DNA of 64,000 nt from Cordylochernes scorpioides (Eukaryota > Arthropoda > Arachnida > Pseudoscorpiones > Chernetidae): positions 144,011,081 through 144,075,080 of the forward strand of contig CP092865.1 of assembly GCA_030710605.1 (NCBI GenBank), written 5' to 3'. Each line of letters opens with the position of its first letter. Position 1 is the first letter of the stretch. Below the pieces are notes generated by a model. That model did no database searches, was not told the origin of the DNA, and saw nothing but the letters and a program-made list of their open reading frames with translations. The position numbers were made by a program, and so were the translations under genes. Shown here piece by piece: positions 21,528-54,101 of the stretch.

Positions 21528-21738
21528 AATACACTCATGGACAAAACTTAAGGAAGTTGTACCTTTTAGCATGTGTATCGGTATTCAGACAATAACTCTT
21601 GAGATATATTTGATACACAGTGACCTTTATTGAAGATACAAAAGATAACAAAGTGTGAACAACCTGTCTCCTTTATAAAAATAGACTACCAGAGGCATCA
21701 AAGTATGAAACATCCTCAAGTTGTCTCCATGAGTGTAA
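21528..21738. mobile_element. MITE-T copy
   Basis: Begins ACACTCATGGACAAAAC and ends GTCTCCATGAGTG-TA. Confidence 0.8.
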
Positions 21739-21895: not shown

Positions 21896-21903
21896 CTCTG
21901 ATA

Positions 21904-23657
21904 ACACTGGTCAACAACATTTTTGCCCAAGAGAACCTGATGGTGTTTCTAGTGTAACTTTTCATGCTGAACTCAAAAATCTAATCAGAAATTTTTCCCT
22001 ACCCATGGTTTTTGCATGACAGCCTTTTTTTGTATTGGGATAAATACAGCAAAAAATACAAAAATGTATTACGTAAGCATTTTTGCATAAATCTTATTAC
22101 ATTACACTGGCTTATCAAAAATTATTTTTCTTTGTCCCAAAAGAAACAGCATAATATCTAAATTTAACTCTTTGTACTGATTCCAAATATACCATTAGTT
22201 TTTTTCTATCACGCAAGATTTTTGAGATACACCTACTTGAAATTTGGAAATGTTTTTGATACAGAGGCCTATATGAACGAAATATATTTATTTTATTGAA
22301 AAGTAGTGACAGTGGATTTTCTTCTATACTTTGCTTGTGGTACATCCCTCTTGAGTGTCCAGCAGTAGTCAGCAAGCATACCGGGACTCTATTTACCTTG
22401 GTACCGCTTCTCCATGCTTGATATATCTTGAAAAGAAGTCTTGAAATTCATCTTGACGCTTGCGAAAAAAGCATACTTTTGTGCCTTTATGCAGCAGATT
22501 CCAGCCTTTTAACCTAGAGCCTAAAAGTTCACTCTTTTTTTGGATAAATCTAAATCACGTACGAGGTCATTCAAATCTCCTTGGGTTAACAAATGAGGTT
22601 CAGATGAAGCACCTGCTTCAAAATTTGTGTCATCCGACTGTTGCTCTCATCTATCTGAATCATCGTCACTAACTATTACATTTTCAGGAGGCTGTGGCAC
22701 AGGTAAAATATCACTATGAGGAACCGGTCTCATAGCAGAAGGCAAATCTGGATATTCAACTGTATGTCTTGATTTGGATGTAATATCTGTAGTCTTTGTC
22801 AAAAAAAATTACAGTCTGAAGAATGGTCTTTAGGTTCCCGCCATATCATTGGAACCGCAAAAGGCAATATGACGATCACCTTTAATCCACCCTGTAAGAC
22901 ATCGAGCACAAATTTCACAACAATGATGAGGAGCCCAAGTCTTATCTTGGTCACCGACTTTACAGCCAAAATAAAGTTCATAGCACTTTTTGATGAGCGG
23001 TGTAAAGTTTCGCCTTTGAACTTTGAAAGTTAATTCCTCACAAATGTAACAGAAAATATCAGGAATATTAATGCAATGCCTCGGCATATTGACACAGTCT
23101 AGTGCACACGATTTATAAAAGCAAATCGATAGAAAAGAATAAACTGATCACTTCAAATTTACCGTCACTTCTGATGCAAATCTATTAAGCAAATCATTAG
23201 GTTCAATTTAAATATATATATTAAAACTGTTATTCAGCAAATAGCATTCCAGAGCTTGTCGTTATTTTTGAGTTTAAAGCAAAATAAATTGCATTAGAAA
23301 ATAAACATATTTAATTTAAAATTCAATAATTTGTTATTTAAATTAATATTTATGATTCTTAAAGAGCAAAATTTAATTAATAACAAATAAAATAAAGCTT
23401 TTGGCTCCACATATCATCTCTTCTTGTCAAAATTAAAGCTCTAGCTAATGTAAAGATGTTTACTTAAAAATGCTTACGTAAAATTTTCTGCATTATTACT
23501 GTATATAACAATTTATAGAAAAAATGGTTATCCTGCAAGAACTATGGGTGATGGAAAACTTCTGATTTCATTTTTGAATTCAGCATGAAAAGTTACATTA
23601 GAAGCAACATCAGGTTTTCTCCGGCAAAAAAAAAAAGTTTTTTTTGTAAACCTGTGT
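21904..23657. mobile_element. TIR element (1.75 kb) carrying a broken gene of unknown function
   Basis: Long imperfect terminal inverted repeats of about 180 bases: the left starts ACACTGGTCAACAAC and the right, read on the minus strand, starts ACACAGGTTTACAA. Both then share AACCTGATG, GTAACTTTTCATGCTGAA, a CCCAT block and TTACGTAAGCATTTTT. Between them lies one minus-strand gene remnant. The arrangement is that of a DNA transposon whose cargo or transposase is the remnant. I cannot assign the superfamily from the ends. Confidence 0.65.
22310..23087 (-). pseudogene. Degenerate cysteine-rich protein of unknown function, internally deleted
   Basis: From the minus-strand ATG at 23087 it reads MPRHCINIPDIFCYIC, then CKVGDQDKTWAPHHCCEICA. 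A frameshift follows, and the next frame gives PFAVPMIWREPKDHSSDC, HTVEYPDLPSAMRPVPHS, and further on SSEPHLLTQGDLNDLVRDL. A C-terminal-type block, LADYCWTLKRDVP, appears by about 22330-22385. The C-x2-C and H-C-C-x2-C clusters suggest an N-terminal zinc-binding domain. I recall this as an abundant, uncharacterised multicopy protein in invertebrate genomes; the middle third appears deleted. It lies between the inverted repeats of the element above. Confidence 0.6.
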
Positions 23658-24188
23658 AATTAAAGAGAATGTAAGTAGGAAATGTCAGTTTGGAAATTGT
23701 ATTGACTATTGCTAAGATGTTTAATCTACATTACAAAATTACCAAAGGTTGGTATGGGTCAACTTACAAATGAAGTGATCTTGAGTGAAAAAAATAAGAG
23801 AATGGTGGTTGTCTCAATCTTTGGATGAACGAGTCATAAAATGTTTTCCAGTAGTGCTTAAGTGAATGGAAAAATTAATCAAGCGAAGGTTTATATCATC
23901 TATTGACCCTCTCCGCAAACTAACGGCCTCAATGACAAAGCCACAACACCAGCTTTGGCAAACTGAGAACCATCCATGGTTTCTGTCTAATGGATTTCGT
24001 CAGTCTAGGGTGGACTTTATTTAATGATACCACACGGGATCAAATGAAATCTTCACAATCTGCCAAAGAGGTGTTTAGATGGTTAAGTAGCTAGGCCAAA
24101 ATTTCCATCTATAAGTGAAGACAAAAAGCCACCGTATCAGGCTTGCAGGTTTGTATCTGCAAAGAATTTTATATAGAAAATTTATATT
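23658..24188. other. Unassigned sequence
   Basis: No repeat or coding signal recognised. Confidence 0.3.
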
Positions 24189-24410: not shown

Positions 24411-25375
24411 TGAATACCACGGCCCAATCATGTGGAACTTTCCGAGTTGCATCACATTACCATCATTTGAGTCGTAACTTATTTACACATCAGCCCTTTT
24501 TTTTTTTAATATGTAGCAGCTGAAAAAAATGTTGTAATTGTTATAATTTAATTATGAAGTATAGATTAATTTTTCTTTAATTATATAAATAAAAAACTAA
24601 ATTACTCTATGAAATGTAAATTAAAAAATGAGTAAATGTTTTTAATAGGAATAATACTATATATGTCTAGCTTGCTATAGTTTTGCTTGGCTAAAAAGAA
24701 TAAGAGCCTAGCCGGGATATCGCGTTTTTTGTGCTGAAATAAAATAAAATGCATGTATAAAAAATAATAAATAAACGTTTTTTCTAACCAACGGTGAATG
24801 AATTTCTTATTCTGAATCCCTGATAATACTTACATAATACTTTCAACATTTAGACAACCCTCTGTTGTCCTTTTCATGGAATTTTCAAGGGCGACAAAGG
24901 CTCATCAAAACGTTAGAAGTATTAAAGAAATGGGTTTTTATGTAAATAATGTATGACTCAATTGAAAAAACCAACCTTCAAAATGGCGTTTTCAATTATC
25001 ATTCGAAAGATAGAATCCTCTGAAATGTAAATAATAATTTAAAAAAACGGTCTCCGAAGTTTCTTAAAAGGTTTATAATACCTGAAAGTTTGAGAGAGAA
25101 TATGTAGATAAAGCAAGAAACTTATCCTTGGAAAGGGCATCTCCTTATCATGCAACTGAAAGTTGCTGACGGCTTGCGCCATTTATCGGAATAAATATCA
25201 ATTATTCGTTGATTTTTTAATTATTCCAGAATTGTGGCCAAATACCTATTCTTGATTAATCAAGAAAATCTAACCACGTACGTATTTCGAGCTGTTGGCA
25301 CTCGTCAGCGTGGTGCAAGCTGTTCACATTATCCTTGGAAGCCGTTTTTTTATTATTGCACATTATGATCATTGT
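24411..25375. other. AT-rich sequence
   Basis: Fragments near 25095-25150 (AAGAAACTTATCCTTGG) resemble the P3 arm tip and 25245-25270 resembles the P7 centre. No gene. Confidence 0.35.
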
Positions 25376-29553: not shown

Positions 29554-30076
29554 CTAGCCGAATGACCCGGGCAACGCCCGGGTTTACCCGATTAAATGTT
29601 TTTATTCAAATACTATTCGTTACAATTATAAATTGGCGCCGTGGATGTCACTCTTGTGAAACGTCCCGCTCCAAACTTTGTGTCTGAGAAGCGATATTTT
29701 TATAGAAAGATGATCTGGCTTTTGTTTTCTGCTCGAATGAATGTTTTTCTGTCAGAATTTTTTGTTCCTGCGTACAAAATAATGAACTGGTTTCACCCGT
29801 GGTCTCTGCTTTTTGGAATTTTTCCCGATATAATTTTGTGTCTGATAATCAAACATGATACAGAAATATCGTCATCATCATTTTCTGACTAAAATATATA
29901 GTTTTAATAATTGATTTATATATTTTTTAAAATAGCCTATCGTCTTCCCCGTATTTTTTTACCTATGTATGGAAATTTTGGTTTGAATTAGTGAACTACT
30001 GCGAATTTGTATACCGGACATACAAACCAACAAACAAACAGACAAACATACAAACATTCATTTTTATATATATAGA
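29554..30076 (-). mobile_element. Non-autonomous Helitron, minus strand (523 bp)
   Basis: Read on the minus strand it starts TCTATATATATAAAAATG and ends with a hairpin of CCCGGGCGTTGCCCGGG about ten bases before CTAG at 29557-29554. It sits between A (29553) and T (30077), as Helitrons do. An 83-codon + strand frame (29641-29892) inside is not recognisable and is not called as a gene. Confidence 0.75.
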
Positions 30077-31821: not shown

Positions 31822-32224
31822 TGTAAAACGACATTTGAAAATTACCCCGCATTTGTTTCTTTTAAACGAAAAATCGAAATTTATTTTTAAGGAGAAATAA
31901 CGATTATTTCTAACCTTAGGGATGAAGTATGAAAGGATGAATTGTGAAGAGTAATGATAAACGAAAAATAAAAGTGTCCAGGGATGGGGAAATATATTTC
32001 CAGGGTAGCCTAGTGGACATGGCATCTGCCCGGTAAGCGGAACACTGTGGGTTCGTTTCCCATCCCTGGACACTTTTATTTTTCCGTTTATCATTACTCT
32101 TCACAATTCATCCTTTCATACTTCATCCCTAAGGTTAGAAATAATCGTTATTTCTCCTTAAAATAAATATCGATTTTTCGTTTAAAAGAAACACATGCGG
32201 GATAATTTTCAAATGTAGTTTTAC
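31822..32224. repeat. P6 foldback element with a tRNA-like cloverleaf at its apex
   Basis: Arms of about 170 bases (AAAACGACATTTGAAAATTA... and complement) contain AAGGAGAAATAACG and GAAGAGTAATGATAAACG. The arms extend inwards to GTGTCCAGGGATGGG on the left and CCCATCCCTGGACAC on the right. The right inner end is also the 3' half of a tRNA-like sequence (31999-32071), so that strand could pair either within the tRNA or with the far arm. Confidence 0.75.
31999..32071 (+). tRNA. tRNA-like sequence (possible Thr-GGT), probably not functional
   Basis: A full cloverleaf folds by eye. The acceptor is TCCAGGG with CCCTGGA and the D stem is GCC/GGC. The anticodon stem is TCTGC/GCGGA around loop CCGGTAA, giving anticodon GGT. 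The T stem is GTGGG/CCCAT around TTCGTTT. B-box GGTTCGTTTCC and A-box-like TAGCCTAGTGG fit a Pol III promoter. The base before the anticodon is C instead of the usual T, and the sequence lies inside a foldback repeat, so a SINE head or tRNA pseudogene is more likely than a working gene. Confidence 0.5.
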
Positions 32225-45788: not shown

Positions 45789-46044
45789 CATTTCACTCAA
45801 TAAAATATGTTTAAAATGTATATGTTTGAGATGAAATAAGTAGTCGCAAGGTAAAAGGGAAAGACGGCCAGATTGGATGTACCAGCCAGTAGAGGAAGAC
45901 CATGTGGGGGATGAAGGAAATTCCAGTCCAATCGGCGATTATAAAAAAAGGGCTGAGTTAAAATGGCTGAGCAAGCGATGTTTCCGCTCGCCACCTGCGG
46001 GTGGTACTTCCGGGGGGTGGTCCCGCCTACGTCTCCCTGGGTGA

Positions 46045-46138
46045 GGAACGCTTCACGATTTTGCGTGTCATCCTTGCGCCATGCTAATATTCTCTTTACG
46101 TTCCTCATGTAGTAGTTGTACCACCGAACAAGCGTGTA
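46045..46138 (-). ncRNA. U6 snRNA-like copy (probable pseudogene)
   Basis: Minus strand reads GCTTGTTCGGTGGTACA, then a changed middle, ATTAGCATGGCGCAAGGATG, ACACGCAAAATCGTGAAGC and GTTCC. The 3' half is U6-like but the CCCCT before GCGCAAGG is missing and the ACAGAGA box reads AAAGAGA. No T-run terminator follows. Confidence 0.75.
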
Positions 46139-46609
46139 CAAGCGTAAACTTATTGCGAAGGGCGTTTAGATATTTGTATAAAAGTATATCGCAATTTGCT
46201 TATAATTGAAAAGGATTGTTGAATAATAAATATCATTTTAAATAAAATGTTTTATTTGCACACTAAAAATTTGGATTTTAGAATATGACATGGGATCAGA
46301 TTCTATTATGCTTCGTGCTTAACGCCACATGGCAGTCATTGCCTGGCTGTAAGCTGATACGTCTCCTCAGTCAGCCTTCATCAGGGCTTGATTTCTATGA
46401 CTGTCTTTTTACAATTGAAACAATTTTATTGTGACATCTAGTCAATAATAATAAAGAATGGGGGAATATCTACTTTAATTCAAGAGTAAGAAAGGCTCCA
46501 CCACCTTGATAAGGTCTTCCTCCAAACCAGAAGGGGGTCTTATTGGATTCTCCGCATCTCCTGGCCCAGGAAGTGCTTATATATACCGGTCTTGGCAGAC
46601 GCCAGGATG

Positions 46610-46704
46610 GTACACGCTTGTTCGGCGGTACATATACTAAAATTGGAACTATACAGAGAAGATAAGCATGCCCACTGCGCAAGGATGACACGCAAAATCG
46701 TGGC
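46610..46704 (+). ncRNA. U6 snRNA-like copy
   Basis: Reads GCTTGTTCGGCGGTACATA, TACTAAAATTGGAAC, ACAGAGA at 46653-46659, AAGCATG, CTGCGCAAGGATGACACG and CAAAATCGTGG. U6 is the catalytic spliceosomal RNA transcribed by Pol III. A TATATATA box lies about 30 bases before the start, as in external Pol III U6 promoters. The 3' end diverges after ATCGTG and lacks a T-run, so this copy is also likely inactive. Confidence 0.8.
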
Positions 46705-46744
46705 TGTCTTCTGATGATATTGTAGGGTCTATTGTCCATGAATT

Positions 46745-47913: not shown

Positions 47914-48889
47914 TGTTAAAACTATTTTACCGTTCTTTTACTTTGTACGTAGAATGAAAAACTTAGGTGAAGGGAGACAAGCAAGATATCGACATGGTCG
48001 GGGAAACTCCCAGCTGCGAGCCCCAGGACAAAGGTCAGCAGATGGCCCGGGGAGAAAAGTCAAGTGGATGTCTGGAATTTGGTTTTTTTGTTCTGCAAGT
48101 CCCGGGACAGCCCGCCATGTGGCGTCTCTTTTTTTTCTCAGAGTTAGTTGGAAGCAGCGGACCAGGCGGAGCAGACGCAGCATGAGTTAGCAGCAGCGGC
48201 CCAGGCGGGGCAGACGCGCCTGGGAAGTATCCCACGAGCAGCGTCTCGTGGACGGAGAGAACGTCTTGGAGTATCCCACGAGCAGCGTCTCGTGGACGGA
48301 GAGAACGTCTTGGAGTATCCCACGAGCAGCGTCTCGTGGACGGAGAGAACGTCTTGGAGTATCCTACGAGCAGCGTCTCGTGGACGGAGAGAACGTCTTG
48401 GAGTATCCCACGAGCAGCGTCTCGTGGACGGAAAGAACGTCTTGGAGTATCCCACGAGCAGCGTCTCGTGGACGGAAAGAACGTCTTGGACATCGCACAA
48501 CGCGCGACAAAGTGGAAACCAAGTCAAGCCAGCGACGGCGTTGACACCCGAGGTACTGTACAACGCTGGACATTCCCCCTGACACTTATTTTTTATCTCC
48601 CTTCCCTAAGACTACTTTAATTTTACTTTAATTTTTTGCTTAACCTTTTTTTATCTTGTTTTTTATGCATAATTCTTTACATATATAAGTATAATAGTTT
48701 TTAGCCCTGTTTTAATCTTTAAATAAACCATAATTCTTTATATATAAGTGTAATAGTTTTAGCCCCTTTTTGTTTTAATTTTTAAATAAAATCTTTTGTT
48801 ATACTGTGTTTTATGTGCATTTATTTCCCCCATTGTTTTTCCTTTCAATCGATCACCTTTTTTTTTGTTTTTTTAAACGAACAAGAACA
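47914..48889 (+). repeat. BEL 5' LTR
   Basis: Starts TG and ends CA. It holds six 44-bp units (48228-48490), each with the hairpin CACGAG-CAGCGT-CTCGTG. The 3' third is T-rich with several AATAAA words, fitting polyadenylation. Confidence 0.9.
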
Positions 48890-48891
48890 TT

Positions 48892-48909
48892 TTGGTGAGC
48901 CGGACGTGA
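48892..48909 (+). other. BEL primer-binding site
   Basis: The bases TTGGTGAGCCGGACGTGATC begin two bases after the LTR. The part from TGG onward differs at about two positions from the complement of an animal tRNA-Trp 3' end as I recall it; tRNA-Trp priming is inference. Confidence 0.6.
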
Positions 48910-48925
48910 TCGATTTAAAGGAAAT

Positions 48926-49987
48926 ATGGAGGAAATGGATGCAATTAAAAAGCGCAGAAAAGCCATAAGAGGTACTTTCACTAGAATTATTAATGAAATA
49001 AAAGGAGAATTTGAAAAGTCTCAAATTGATAGGAATGATATTTATTCTAAGTTTAATAGACTAGAGTCTTATTACACGAAACTTGTAGATCTAAACGAAA
49101 AATATCAGGCTTTATTGGTAGTGAAAGAAGGGATTACAGAGGAAAGTATTGATAGGGAATGGCAAGAATGCGATAAATATGAAGAGGAAAAGTTTGATAT
49201 TCAACAGAAAGTCAGTGTACTACGGAATCCCGATAAAGAAGAAACAATCCCGATTGCTAGCGAGGACACTGTAATAAATGTGAAATTACCAGAGTTAGCC
49301 CTAAAAAGCTATGACGGCTCTCTGGAAGGTTGGTTGCCTTGGTGGGCGCAGTTTTCGAAAATTCACGAAAATAAGAATTTATCCGATAGCGACCGGTTTT
49401 TATATTTGCGTCAAGCAATTGTACCAAATTCAGAAGCCTATCGTGTTGTAGCAAGCTATCCCGTTACAGGCGCCAACTATGTTTTGGCGGTACAAGCCCT
49501 ACAGGAGCGATTCGGTGACCCGAATATACTGACAGAACTATATGTCAGACGTCTATTGAATTCGGTTATATCTAATGTAAAGAAAGAAAATAGAAATTTA
49601 AGCAGTCTGTACGACGAACTGAGCAGTCACCTCCGGTCATTAGAGACATTGGGCATTGATCCCCAGTTGTCGGGTATTTTTTTATACCCTCTTGTCGAGT
49701 CTTCATTACCTTCGGATATTTTGAAAATATGGCACAGGCATCCTTCTTCGGGTTATGGTATAGAGTTAGCAAAACGGGAAGAGTCAGATAAAGGGGTTGG
49801 AGGAGCTCAAGAAAGGCTCAGGTTATTATTGGACTTTCTAAAAGCCGAAGTAAGGAGTGCTCAACGGCTGAAATTAGTGGAAAAAGGCTTTAAGCAGGAA
49901 GAATTAGCCTGCCGGGTAGCAGAGGAGGAATTAGCCTGCCGAGTAGCAGAGGAAGTATTAGCCTGCCGAGTGCAGAGGAAGTATTAG
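48926..49987 (+). CDS. gag: BEL/Pao Gag-like protein (353 residues, truncated at a repeat tract)
   Basis: Starts at ATG 48926, 36 bases after the LTR. Residues 1-100 are charged and helical, probably a coiled coil. From about residue 120 (LPELALKSYDGS, then W-x-x-WWAQFSKIHEN, LSDSDRFLYLRQAI and RFGDP) it matches the Pao Gag domain known as DUF1759. From about residue 324 the protein runs into copies of EELACRVA encoded by a 27-bp tandem repeat, then stops. The nucleocapsid zinc knuckles and protease that should follow are missing. It lies in the same sense as the partial pol downstream. Confidence 0.85.
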   Translation: MEEMDAIKKRRKAIRGTFTRIINEIKGEFEKSQIDRNDIYSKFNRLESYYTKLVDLNEKYQALLVVKEGITEESIDREWQECDKYEEEKFDIQQKVSVLRNPDKEETIPIASEDTVINVKLPELALKSYDGSLEGWLPWWAQFSKIHENKNLSDSDRFLYLRQAIVPNSEAYRVVASYPVTGANYVLAVQALQERFGDPNILTELYVRRLLNSVISNVKKENRNLSSLYDELSSHLRSLETLGIDPQLSGIFLYPLVESSLPSDILKIWHRHPSSGYGIELAKREESDKGVGGAQERLRLLLDFLKAEVRSAQRLKLVEKGFKQEELACRVAEEELACRVAEEVLACRVQRKY

Positions 49988-50170
49988 CCTGCCGAGTGCA
50001 GAGGAAGTATTAGCCTGCCGAGTGCAGAGGAAGAATTAGCCTGCCGAGTAGCAGAGGAAGAATTAGCCTGCCGAGTAGCAGAGGAAGAATTAGCCTGCCG
50101 GGTAGCAGAGGAAGAATTAGCCTGCCGAGTGCAGAGGAAGTATTAGCCTGCCGAGTAGCAGAGGAAGTGG
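49893..50170 (+). repeat. 27-bp tandem repeat inside BEL
   Basis: Units GAGGAATTAGCCTGCCGAG with TAGCAGAG or TGCAGAG. Units of 27 keep frame, shortened ones shift it and close the gag frame at 49987. Confidence 0.85.
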
Positions 50171-50194
50171 GAGAGCCTGCAGATCGGAAAATAA

Positions 50195-50440
50195 GCTAAA
50201 GAAGCTCAAGGGAAAAAGAGCTCAGTGAAGCTCAAGGTTTAAAGGAGCTCAAAAAGCCCTTTGTTAAAGGTTTAAAGGAGCTCAAGAAGCCCTTTGTTAA
50301 AGGTTAAAAATAGCTCAGTGAAGCTCAAGGTTTAAAAGAGCTCAAAAAGCCCTTTGTTAAAGGTTTAAAGGAGCTCAAGAAGCCCTTTGTTAAAGGTTAA
50401 AAAGAGCTCAGTGAAGCTCAAGGTTTAAAGGAGTTCAAAA
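50195..50440 (+). repeat. Second tandem-repeat tract inside BEL
   Basis: Alternating words AGAGCTCAGTGAAGCTCA, AGGTTTAAAGGAGCTCA and AAGCCCTTTGTTAAAGG. It fills the place where protease and most of reverse transcriptase should be. Confidence 0.8.
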
Positions 50441-50456
50441 GGCCGCAATTGAAATT

Positions 50457-52949
50457 ATGGACAGGGCTAAAATGGACTTACGAGAGTGGGAATATTCTCT
50501 GGAGGAAAACCCTGAAAAGGGGACTTGTACAAAAATATTGGGTGTTGTTTGGAATAAAATGAAAGATTCATTAAAATGCGAACTCCCTGACAATTTGAGT
50601 CTTCAACCCAAATTAACGAAAAGGCTGGTACTGTCCATGGTTCAGCGGATATTTGATCCACTTGGATTTTGCGCTCCAGTATTCTTACCACCAAAGTTGT
50701 TACTGCAGCGATCATGGGGACTGAAACTAGGTTGGGATACACCTCTACCCGAAAGTATGGCCCAGGAATTTCGAACCTGGTTGGATCAAATAAAATTAAT
50801 AGAGTTAATAAAGATACCGAGATATATGTGGAATGATCTCATTTTCCCTACAGAAGTTCATATCTTTTGTGACGCTAGTCAAATAGGCTATGGAGCTGTA
50901 GCCTATTTAAGGAGCGAAACGGGACGAGAAAATACTCTAACTTTGATTTGGAGCAAAGTCAGATTAGCTCCTATGAAGAGTATTACGATCCCTCGCTTGG
51001 AATTAATGGCCATGGTACTAGGAGCTAGACTAGCCAATGCAATCCAAGCTGCCTTGGAGAGAAAATGTGAAACAACTCTTTGGTCTGACTCTACTACCGC
51101 GCTAAGTTGGATAAAGAAAGAAATTGAGTGGAGAGTTTTCGTGAGAAACCGAGTCAGAGAAATACAGGCCACTACCAATTTGAACGATTGGAGGTTCGTT
51201 CCTAGTCAGTTGAACCCGGCCGATCTTCTGTCTCGAGGTTGCCCTCCAAGCCAGTTTGTGCAAAGCAGATGGTGGGAGGGCCCCGAATGGTTGAAAAAAC
51301 CTAAAGAATTCTGGCCCAATTCAGAGTTCTCGATAAATCCAAAAGAAATAAATGTTGAAGAAAACATTATGAAAACCAACATTAATTTGAACATCGATTA
51401 TAAAGACTGGATACTGACAAGGAGGTCTAATTACTCTCTCAACATCAGGGTAATGTCCTATGTTTTAAGATTTTTAGGGAAACTTAAAAAACAGTCAACT
51501 GAAACAGGACCTTTGAAAGTTTCAGAATTAGACTTGGCAGAAAAAAAGCTTATCCGAATGATTCAGGAGAAAGTCTCCATAGAGAAATCGAATGCAACCA
51601 AGAGTTTTAAAATATTAAAAAACACTGACGGACTTTGGTGTGTAGAAAGCAAACTTTTACATGGACAGGTCCCAGAAGAATTTAAAACTCCTATCATTCT
51701 ACCAGGCGACCATCCCTTCGTAGAGCAACTTATATGGGAAGTGCACCTGAAGAATGGACATGTAGGGGTGCAATTCATTTTATCAAAGCTGAGAGAGAAA
51801 TTTTGGATAATCAGGGGAAGGAAAACGATAAAGAAAATTATCAGTAAGTGCATTGCTTGCAAGAGACTTAAAGAAAAGTCTCTGCAAAGACCAATGGCAG
51901 CTTTGCCAGAAAACAGAATTGGACTGGGCAAACCCTTCCAAATTACAGGAGTTGATTTATTAGGCCCTCTTCATTTGAAAGAAGGTGGGAAAGTGTGGGT
52001 AGCCGCCTTTACTTGCGCCGTCTATCGAGCTATTCATCTGGAGTTGGTGAAGAGTTTAGAGACAGGAGTCTTCATGATGGCCCTCCATAGGTTTATTTGT
52101 CGGAGAGGACGCCCCGAGAAAATATATAGCGACAATGGCACCAATTTCGCAAAACTTAATAGAATATTCAAGAGATTGGATTGGATTAGAATTGAAAGGG
52201 AAACCTTAATTGAAAGGATACAATGGATTTTTATCCCTCCTTCTGCTCCTTGGTGGGGAGGATTTTGGGAAAGAATGGTTAGGACAATAAAGGAAATGTT
52301 GATAAAGATGCTAGGTCACAGGAAGCTGAAATATGTACAACTGCAGACTGCCCTTTGTGAAATCGAATCTATCATTAATAATCGACCCCTCACTTATGTC
52401 TCTGAAGACGACAATGATCTAAAACCGTTAACTCCTAATGAGTTTTTACAAAATGGTCCAGAGTCTAGCTTTCCTGAATTTGAAAATTTAAAGCCAGAAA
52501 TGTTGCACACTAGATACAGAGAGTTAGGTCAACTGAAGAGAGAATTAAAGCAGAGATTCTTAAAGGAATATTTAGGCGCGCTGATTCAGAAATCCGAAAA
52601 TATTGATAGAAGACAGTTGAAAGTAGGAGACGTTGTACTGATCGGGCAAGAAAATCTTAAAAGAATGTTTTGGCCTAAAGGGCGAATAGTAAATCTCATA
52701 CCAGGAAAAGATGGAATAGTGAGAGTGGCCCATGTTAAAACATCCACAGGAACCTTGATCAGGGCTCTACAACGCTTACACCCTCTTGAAATATCCTCGA
52801 ATGTTGAGACGATTCAAAAGGACAATTCAAATACCGAACCCCAATCTGAAGCATTTTTAGGAAATAGGCCCAATACTGAATCCAGGGACTTTAGAAGTAG
52901 ATATGGTAGGGTAATCAGAAAGCCTGCAAGGTATGACTCGAAGGACTAG
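50457..52949 (+). CDS. pol: BEL/Pao Pol, C-terminal part: RT thumb, RNase H, integrase (830 residues)
   Basis: The frame opens within RT, in the region after the catalytic YxDD (missing here): KMDLREWEY then KILGVVWN. RNase H follows, with Asp139 (FCDAS), Glu182 (IPRLELM), Asp211 (SDSTTAL) and Asp256 (NPADLLSRG). An integrase zinc domain (HLKNGH ... CIACKRL) spans about 427-470. The core has Asp500 (GVDLLGP), Asp559 (SDNGTNF) and Glu605 (WWGGFWER), spaced as in Pao integrases. The C-terminal domain (KVGDVVLIG, WPKGRIV, about 715-770) matches DUF5641. The chosen ATG is simply the first Met; the native protein was longer. RNase H and integrase residues look intact, but RT activity is impossible. 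Confidence 0.9.
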   Translation: MDRAKMDLREWEYSLEENPEKGTCTKILGVVWNKMKDSLKCELPDNLSLQPKLTKRLVLSMVQRIFDPLGFCAPVFLPPKLLLQRSWGLKLGWDTPLPESMAQEFRTWLDQIKLIELIKIPRYMWNDLIFPTEVHIFCDASQIGYGAVAYLRSETGRENTLTLIWSKVRLAPMKSITIPRLELMAMVLGARLANAIQAALERKCETTLWSDSTTALSWIKKEIEWRVFVRNRVREIQATTNLNDWRFVPSQLNPADLLSRGCPPSQFVQSRWWEGPEWLKKPKEFWPNSEFSINPKEINVEENIMKTNINLNIDYKDWILTRRSNYSLNIRVMSYVLRFLGKLKKQSTETGPLKVSELDLAEKKLIRMIQEKVSIEKSNATKSFKILKNTDGLWCVESKLLHGQVPEEFKTPIILPGDHPFVEQLIWEVHLKNGHVGVQFILSKLREKFWIIRGRKTIKKIISKCIACKRLKEKSLQRPMAALPENRIGLGKPFQITGVDLLGPLHLKEGGKVWVAAFTCAVYRAIHLELVKSLETGVFMMALHRFICRRGRPEKIYSDNGTNFAKLNRIFKRLDWIRIERETLIERIQWIFIPPSAPWWGGFWERMVRTIKEMLIKMLGHRKLKYVQLQTALCEIESIINNRPLTYVSEDDNDLKPLTPNEFLQNGPESSFPEFENLKPEMLHTRYRELGQLKRELKQRFLKEYLGALIQKSENIDRRQLKVGDVVLIGQENLKRMFWPKGRIVNLIPGKDGIVRVAHVKTSTGTLIRALQRLHPLEISSNVETIQKDNSNTEPQSEAFLGNRPNTESRDFRSRYGRVIRKPARYDSKD

Positions 52950-53126
52950 TGAAAGTACCTGCAAAAAAAAAAAAGTGTAATATGTGTATTCTTTTATGTG
53001 TATTCTTTTATGTGTATTTTATGTAATGTAATAGGCATATCTACTCTTGTGTGTATTGTGTATATATATGCTCTTTTGTCTTATACTTAATTTTGACTTC
53101 TTTCAGAGCAAAATTTTGTGGGAGAA

Positions 53127-54101
53127 TGTTAAAACTATTTTACCGTTCTTTTACTTTGTACGTAGAATGAAAAACTTAGGTGAAGGGAGACAAGCAAGAT
53201 ATCGACATGGTCGGGGAAACTCCCAGCTGCGAGCCCCAGGACAAAGGTCAGCAGATGGCCCGGGGAGAAAAGTCAAGTGGATGTCTGGAATTTGGTTTTT
53301 TTGTTCTGCAAGTCCCGGGACAGCCCGCCATGTGGCGTCTCTTTTTTTTCTCAGAGTTAGTTGGAAGCAGCGGACCAGGCGGAGCAGACGCAGCATGAGT
53401 TAGCAGCAGCGGCCCAGGCGGGGCAGACGCGCCTGGGAAGTATCCCACGAGCAGCGTCTCGTGGACGGAGAGAACGTCTTGGAGTATCCCACGAGCAGCG
53501 TCTCGTGGACGGAGAGAACGTCTTGGAGTATCCCACGAGCAGCGTCTCGTGGACGGAGAGAACGTCTTGGAGTATCCTACGAGCAGCGTCTCGTGGACGG
53601 AGAGAACGTCTTGGAGTATCCCACGAGCAGCGTCTCGTGGACGGAAAGAACGTCTTGGAGTATCCCACGAGCAGCGTCTCGTGGACGGAAAGAACGTCTT
53701 GGACATCGCACAACGCGCGACAAAGTGGAAACCAAGTCAAGCCAGCGACGGCGTTGACACCCGAGGTACTGTACAACGCTGGACATTCCCCCTGACACTT
53801 ATTTTTTATCTCCCTTCCCTAAGACTACTTTAATTTTACTTTAATTTTTTGCTTAACCTTTTTTTATCTTGTTTTTATGCATAATTCTTTACATATATAA
53901 GTATAATAGTTTTTAGCCCTGTTTTAATCTTTAAATAAACCATAATTCTTTATATATAAGTGTAATAGTTTTAGCCCCTTTTTGTTTTAATTTTTAAATA
54001 AAATCTTTTGTTATACTGTGTTTTATGTGCATTTATTTCCCCCATTGTTTTTCCTTTCAATCGATCACCTTTTTTTTTGTTTTTTTAAACGAACACGAAC
54101 A
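53127..54101 (+). repeat. BEL 3' LTR
   Basis: Same as the 5' LTR apart from one T missing near 53873 and A-to-C near 54096, including shared quirks such as the TATCCTACGAG unit. Confidence 0.9.

Follow-up and report, generated by a model that had tools for sequence, protein, structure and literature searches.

The closest described systems to the locus reported here are the Chapaev3 transposons. In the portions of PMC4079192 drawn on here, Chapaev3 elements have the CAC/GTG ends of Chapaev, insert between an A and a T, and are flanked by TWA duplications, while their transposases are mostly single-exon and carry C(2)C, LH, and H(4)H motifs; internally deleted derivatives are also described. 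In the excerpts of PMC4411706 considered, a highly complex zinc finger known as the Chapa domain is found in Chapaev3 and is equated with part of the RAG1 N-terminus. The superfamily filing differs between these two sources, at least in the parts used: Chapaev and Chapaev3 are clades of Transib in PMC4411706, whereas Chapaev is placed in CMC in PMC4079192.

Within the window, by which we mean the entire 64,000-nt stretch of DNA that was analyzed, the feature at 21905–23656 is very probably a Chapaev3-type cut-and-paste DNA transposon in a non-autonomous, internally deleted form, judging from its sequence and those of its relatives, and the gene it encloses is what is left of the element's own transposase. 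From its CAC start to its GTG end, the exact element is 1,752 bp long. The left terminal inverted repeat (21905–22104, plus strand), which starts with CACTGGTCAACAAC, lies on the 3′ side of the gene, and the right repeat (23446–23656, minus strand) lies on the 5′ side and ends on the plus strand with AACCTGTG, compared to GACCTGTG in most other copies. The first-pass annotation had reported repeats of about 180 bases beginning with ACAC(T/A)GGT. The repeats are indeed real (~185 bp, 77% identical when gaps are allowed; the arms without gaps measure 116 nt at 82% and 36 nt at 81%), but they start with CAC(T/A)GGT, and the first A of the reported start is instead the last base of a TAA target-site duplication. 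This duplication occupies 21902–21904 on the left, where it is preceded by an A at 21901 (A-TAA-CAC), and 23657–23659 on the right, where it is followed by a T at 23660 (GTG-TAA-T).

Between these ends, we observe the single degenerate minus-strand gene that had been noted previously, with its Cys/His-rich start and later conserved blocks. All of the quoted blocks are present in several frames: CYIC and HHCC-x2-C fall in the open frame at 22830–23147, PFAVPMIWREP in that at 22799–23029, and PSAMRPVPHS in the minus-strand open frame at 22647–22808, while DYCW is contained in a C-terminal piece at 22296–22430. This last piece (QDISSMEK...DYCWTLKR...TTFQ, minus strand) was found by tblastn with the intact protein of a full-length copy, L045, to which it is 89% identical over residues 528–572, and it contains one internal stop. 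The N-terminal part (22410–23087, minus strand) consists of a Cys/His-rich, Chapa-like domain and an acidic linker and aligns to residues 2–242 of the same protein with 73% identity across the full alignment, which takes in out-of-frame parts. The frameshifts and missing middle described in the first pass are likewise seen, as the N-terminal part is disrupted by stops and frame changes and there is no equivalent of approximately residues 242–527 of the 572-aa intact protein. The deletion junction lies at 22405–22435 (query 526/528 boundary), where ~860 bp are absent compared to full-length copies, and the deletion took out the candidate catalytic residues along with C(2)C, LH, and H(4)H. The window copy has thus lost its catalytic core, and no transposase can be made from it, while both ends are retained. 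Pfam scans of four stretches of the window returned nothing at E up to 1.

The rest of the window contains several features of other kinds. A BEL/Pao-type retroelement spans 48035–53833, with DUF1759 at 48899–49987 and Peptidase_A17, integrase zinc-binding, and below-cut-off core domains at 50415–52946; it lies between LTR-like repeats at ~48.0–48.6 and 53.2–53.8 kb that have identical open-reading-frame translations. Matches above the Rfam gathering scores include U6 snRNA at 46610–46719 (plus strand) and 46037–46139 (minus strand) and a tRNA at 31999–32071 (plus strand).

The genome assembly that was searched (2.62 Gb in 24 contigs) contains a large family of related elements. The 39 other places scored first against the window copy match it with 92–97% identity, the closest among them being L002 (97% over the larger piece). 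Most of the 40 scored places, such as L002, match as two pieces ~860 bp apart, and the window copy thus has an internal deletion; L003 aligns with it straight across the junction. The full-length element is ~2.6 kb long (2,407–2,623 bp for 25 elements cut from fetched loci), with terminal inverted repeats of ~185–205 bp that start with CAC(T/A)GGT, and its transposase is encoded in one open frame of 572 aa (552 aa from the first ATG). Genome-wide, exact left ends (CACTGGTCAACAAS) number 2,331, with ATWA preceding 1,929 of them, and the reversed controls gave 0 and 8; together with the 92–97% matches, these counts exceed what is expected by chance. Exact right ends followed by TWAT number 2,812, some of which belong to short palindromic MITEs.

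Among 114 scored protein matches, 20 have a stop-free open frame of 572 aa or more (572 aa in 19 and 595 aa in one). Because these 114 loci are the best-scoring of 10,357 loose candidates, the intact share in the family as a whole is probably lower. Eight of 30 fetched loci are listed as intact, and the same eight are stop-free over 572 aa when read; the other 12 intact frames are known from the match table alone. By distance to L002 or L045, three of the 25 elements group with L002 and the other 22 with L045, with mean DNA differences of 3.4% within the 3, 3.1% within the 22 (range 0.5–24%), and 7.5% between them. The two repeats of a single element are 86–92% identical over ~205 bp in the 22, compared to 78–83% in the 3. 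From the intact frames and low divergence, we infer recent activity of the family. We estimate a dN/dS of ~0.51 within the larger group, and the same value in comparisons to L002 (210 and 21 pairs, respectively, from 22 sequences). The estimate is based on few differences between copies chosen for intact frames and is thus biased and not taken to prove selection; among codons with a single fixed difference, 5 are synonymous and 10 non-synonymous.

We examined target sites in loci L001–L075, in which 31 elements have both ends recognized after removal of duplicate left flanks (L069 and L070 still have a right flank in common). In a search for CAC/GTG-type ends that allowed 2 and 1 mismatches, 30/31 elements start with CAC and all 31 end with GTG. 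Identical 3-bp flanks are found in 26/31 elements, with 25 being TWA (TAA or TTA) and one ATA, and they are absent in the other five. In comparison, the next triplets outward agree in 0/31 and those beyond in 2/31. The target triplet is preceded by A and followed by T in 26/31 elements. In a broader view of left flanks, the 60 distinct ones include 27 that end in TTA and 26 in TAA (53 TWA in total), with an A before the triplet in 57.

Sites without the insertion provide a further comparison. When the joined flanks of 34 copies (including 3 duplicates) were compared to the fetched loci and the window, seven gave spanning matches. Six comparisons covering five insertions were displayed, and they resolve clean empty sites with a single TWA for two insertions: that of L041, versus both L003 and window 29748–29894, and that of L033, versus window 25132–25318. 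The remaining three displayed comparisons (L045/L025, L031/L038, and L067/L003) show no clean triplet, and L056 and L065 also gave spanning matches outside of the displayed set. The window itself therefore contains unoccupied paralogous sites for the transposon, at 25132–25318 and 29748–29894.

It had been proposed in the first-pass annotation that the gene is borne by a DNA element, perhaps as its transposase, and that its full-length relatives should be checked for matching inverted repeats and a constant-length target duplication. Both are found, with a duplication of 3 bp (TWA), and the full-length relatives with the same ends, together with the empty sites, bear out the proposal. Neither of the observations named as contrary to it, relatives without terminal repeats or a gene fragment within an unrelated element, was made. 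The description of the element as little-described, on the other hand, does not stand, as its ends, target site, and protein landmarks match those of Chapaev3 in the published portions used here (PMC4079192).

The intact protein contains candidate catalytic residues D272 and D326, a C(2)C motif (C345-F-L-C348), an LH motif with H394, and the segment E521-H522-GERF-H527. D272, D326, H394 of LH, and EHGERFH are kept in all eight intact frames, as are E521 and E524, either of which is a candidate for the third catalytic residue. C(2)C is kept in 7/8, with L055 having V in place of the first cysteine (C345). An RNase H signal (RT_RNaseH_2) appears at approximately residues 252–300 in 9/9 members, below the Pfam cut-off (E 0.025–0.14). 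The ends, target, and motifs are those of Chapaev3, and a DDE/RNase H fold for the candidate core is supported although not settled.

At the N-terminus, 16 Cys/His residues occur within the first 140 aa and are the same in 7/8 intact frames, with one changed in L053. In a genome search with the Pfam model RAG1_imp_bd, two of eight candidates matched, and the better one, L074, belongs to this family (24.1 bits, with the cut-off at 23.3, genome-wide E 0.025; 27.5 bits and E 2.9e-6 in the protein scan). The model scores above its cut-off in one of five copies scanned, with three others at E 0.016, 0.27, and 3.2 and L043 giving none; in a separate scan of nine members, two matched, with a best E of 0.19, and in a further scan P0001 gave E 1.8. 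The Cys/His-rich start thus appears to fit a Chapa zinc domain, an assignment that is supported but not settled. Protein-level membership in Chapaev3 rests on the motifs and the RAG1-model match. Pfam scans of these proteins gave no significant transposase match and no match to DUF1280, the domain assigned to Chapaev in the part of PMC3985635 that was used. A search of solved structures gave matches at chance level only (best E 0.2 and 0.45), scans of viral contigs with the protein and motif found nothing, and none of the phage records matched at E up to 1. Nine bacterial contigs contain the motif, but their best tblastn E was 0.37, which is not convincing homology, and they were judged to be chance occurrences.

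When compared by description only to the Chapaev3 elements Merrow, Garfield, and Conan, as far as they are covered in the portions of PMC4079192 used, the family has the same CAC/GTG ends and A-TWA-T duplication and the same C(2)C, LH, and H(4)H motifs. It likewise includes derivatives with internal deletions, and it has a single reading frame, as most Chapaev3 do. The transposase is similar in size to that of Garfield (556 aa), whereas Merrow and Garfield differ in having two exons and in being shorter (2,289–2,455 bp). The one copy above the RAG1_imp_bd cut-off resembles the importin-binding/Chapa region of the RAG1 N-terminus. Unlike RAG1 and Transib-RAG, the family is not accompanied by a RAG1 core match in our genome search, which does not prove its absence, and unlike Transib, for which a 5-bp target duplication is given in the excerpt of PMC8355894 considered, it duplicates 3 bp (TWA). 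Molluscan haemocyanin families were likewise without a match in the genome, which again does not prove that they are absent.

The TWA duplication is also what would be expected if the family were instead of the PIF/Harbinger type. PIF/Harbinger elements likewise favor 3-bp TWA targets. The CAC...GTG ends and the C(2)C, LH, and H(4)H landmarks, however, are those given for Chapaev, and no Harbinger-type model is among the four Pfam families listed for nine members at E up to 10, making this assignment highly improbable. Even less credible, to the point of being nearly negligible, is that the gene is a multicopy host gene and that part of it became lodged in an unrelated repeat. Although it would agree with the lack of a Pfam transposase family matching the protein, the gene and ends travel together, with 25 elements of 2,407–2,623 bp lying between the same ends, and both target duplications and empty sites are present.

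Under the Chapaev3 assignment, the N-terminal Cys/His-rich Chapa domain would help bind the element ends, while the D-D-E core (candidates D272, D326, and E521 or E524) would excise the element and join it into A-TWA-T sites, such that TWA is duplicated. For the window copy, the simplest reading is that the deletion arose once and that the defective copy then moved with borrowed transposase. Its junction is matched at 97–100% identity, end to end or nearly so, in 4/40 scored places including the window itself. The other carriers are L060 on contig C1 and L061 and L062 on C11, the latter two having a common left flank and being counted once. A further 22 places span the junction at 83–88% with gaps, and they therefore have other, nearby breakpoints. 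Because the same breakpoint is seen at no fewer than two other insertion sites, full-length copies probably mobilized the window copy in trans once the deletion had occurred. No empty site for the window insertion was detected among the 40 scored of 1,634 candidates, as the sequence on its left side belongs to a different common repeat. The window copy could instead have been placed by segmental duplication, with no transposition following the deletion. Duplicated loci do exist, with L061 and L062 having the same 12 bases before the left end. The window copy, in contrast, is bordered by a perfect A-TAA...TAA-T of its own, and it is preceded by different bases from those in front of L060 and L061; we therefore consider segmental duplication unlikely here.

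Deletion derivatives are also seen beyond the breakpoint found in the window. In a sample consisting of the first 103 Mb of contig C1, 53 of 92 exact left ends have an exact right end as partner no more than 8 kb away, with 38 pairs measuring 1,280–1,351 bp and four measuring 2,556–2,622 bp. Short derivatives thus dominate over full-size elements in this sample. The one short-class element that was read (L003:157–1500, 1,344 bp) is without positions ~1,160–2,432 of the full element and without the 5′ half of the gene.

Right ends also pair with one another on C1, with eight such pairs of 126–199 bp among the 100 right ends listed. The one pair that was read, L093 (G000:C1:13229975–13230200), is a near-perfect palindromic MITE of 196 bp with CACAGGTCTACAAA at both ends, a fold z of −28.7, and A-TAA/TAA-T flanks. 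Its interior matches a common repeat of the window rather than the transposon, with 11 matches of 78–84% in the window, one of them beside the element. In the window, a decayed palindrome is found at 21530–21737, leaving ~165 bp between it and the left end of the element, with arms of 29 nt at 86% identity, and one arm is 81–83% identical to the L093 interior. The shared ends suggest, but do not show, that the transposase may also move MITEs that share only its ends. The wider reading, that the family is still jumping and that intact copies drive both the 1.33-kb derivatives and the unrelated palindromic MITE with CACAGGTCTACAAA (L093), is one that we hold as possible but rather doubtful. If true, end exchange would recruit foreign repeats to a Chapaev3 transposase.

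Apart from the Chapa domain, the finding represents ordinary transposon biology. It provides a likely identity and function for a gene family that was described as uncharacterized in the first-pass annotation, and the ends, target site, and intact copies of this family could be assayed. With several intact copies and an apparent Chapa domain, the published counterpart of part of the RAG1 N-terminus, the family may offer a practical place to study this domain.
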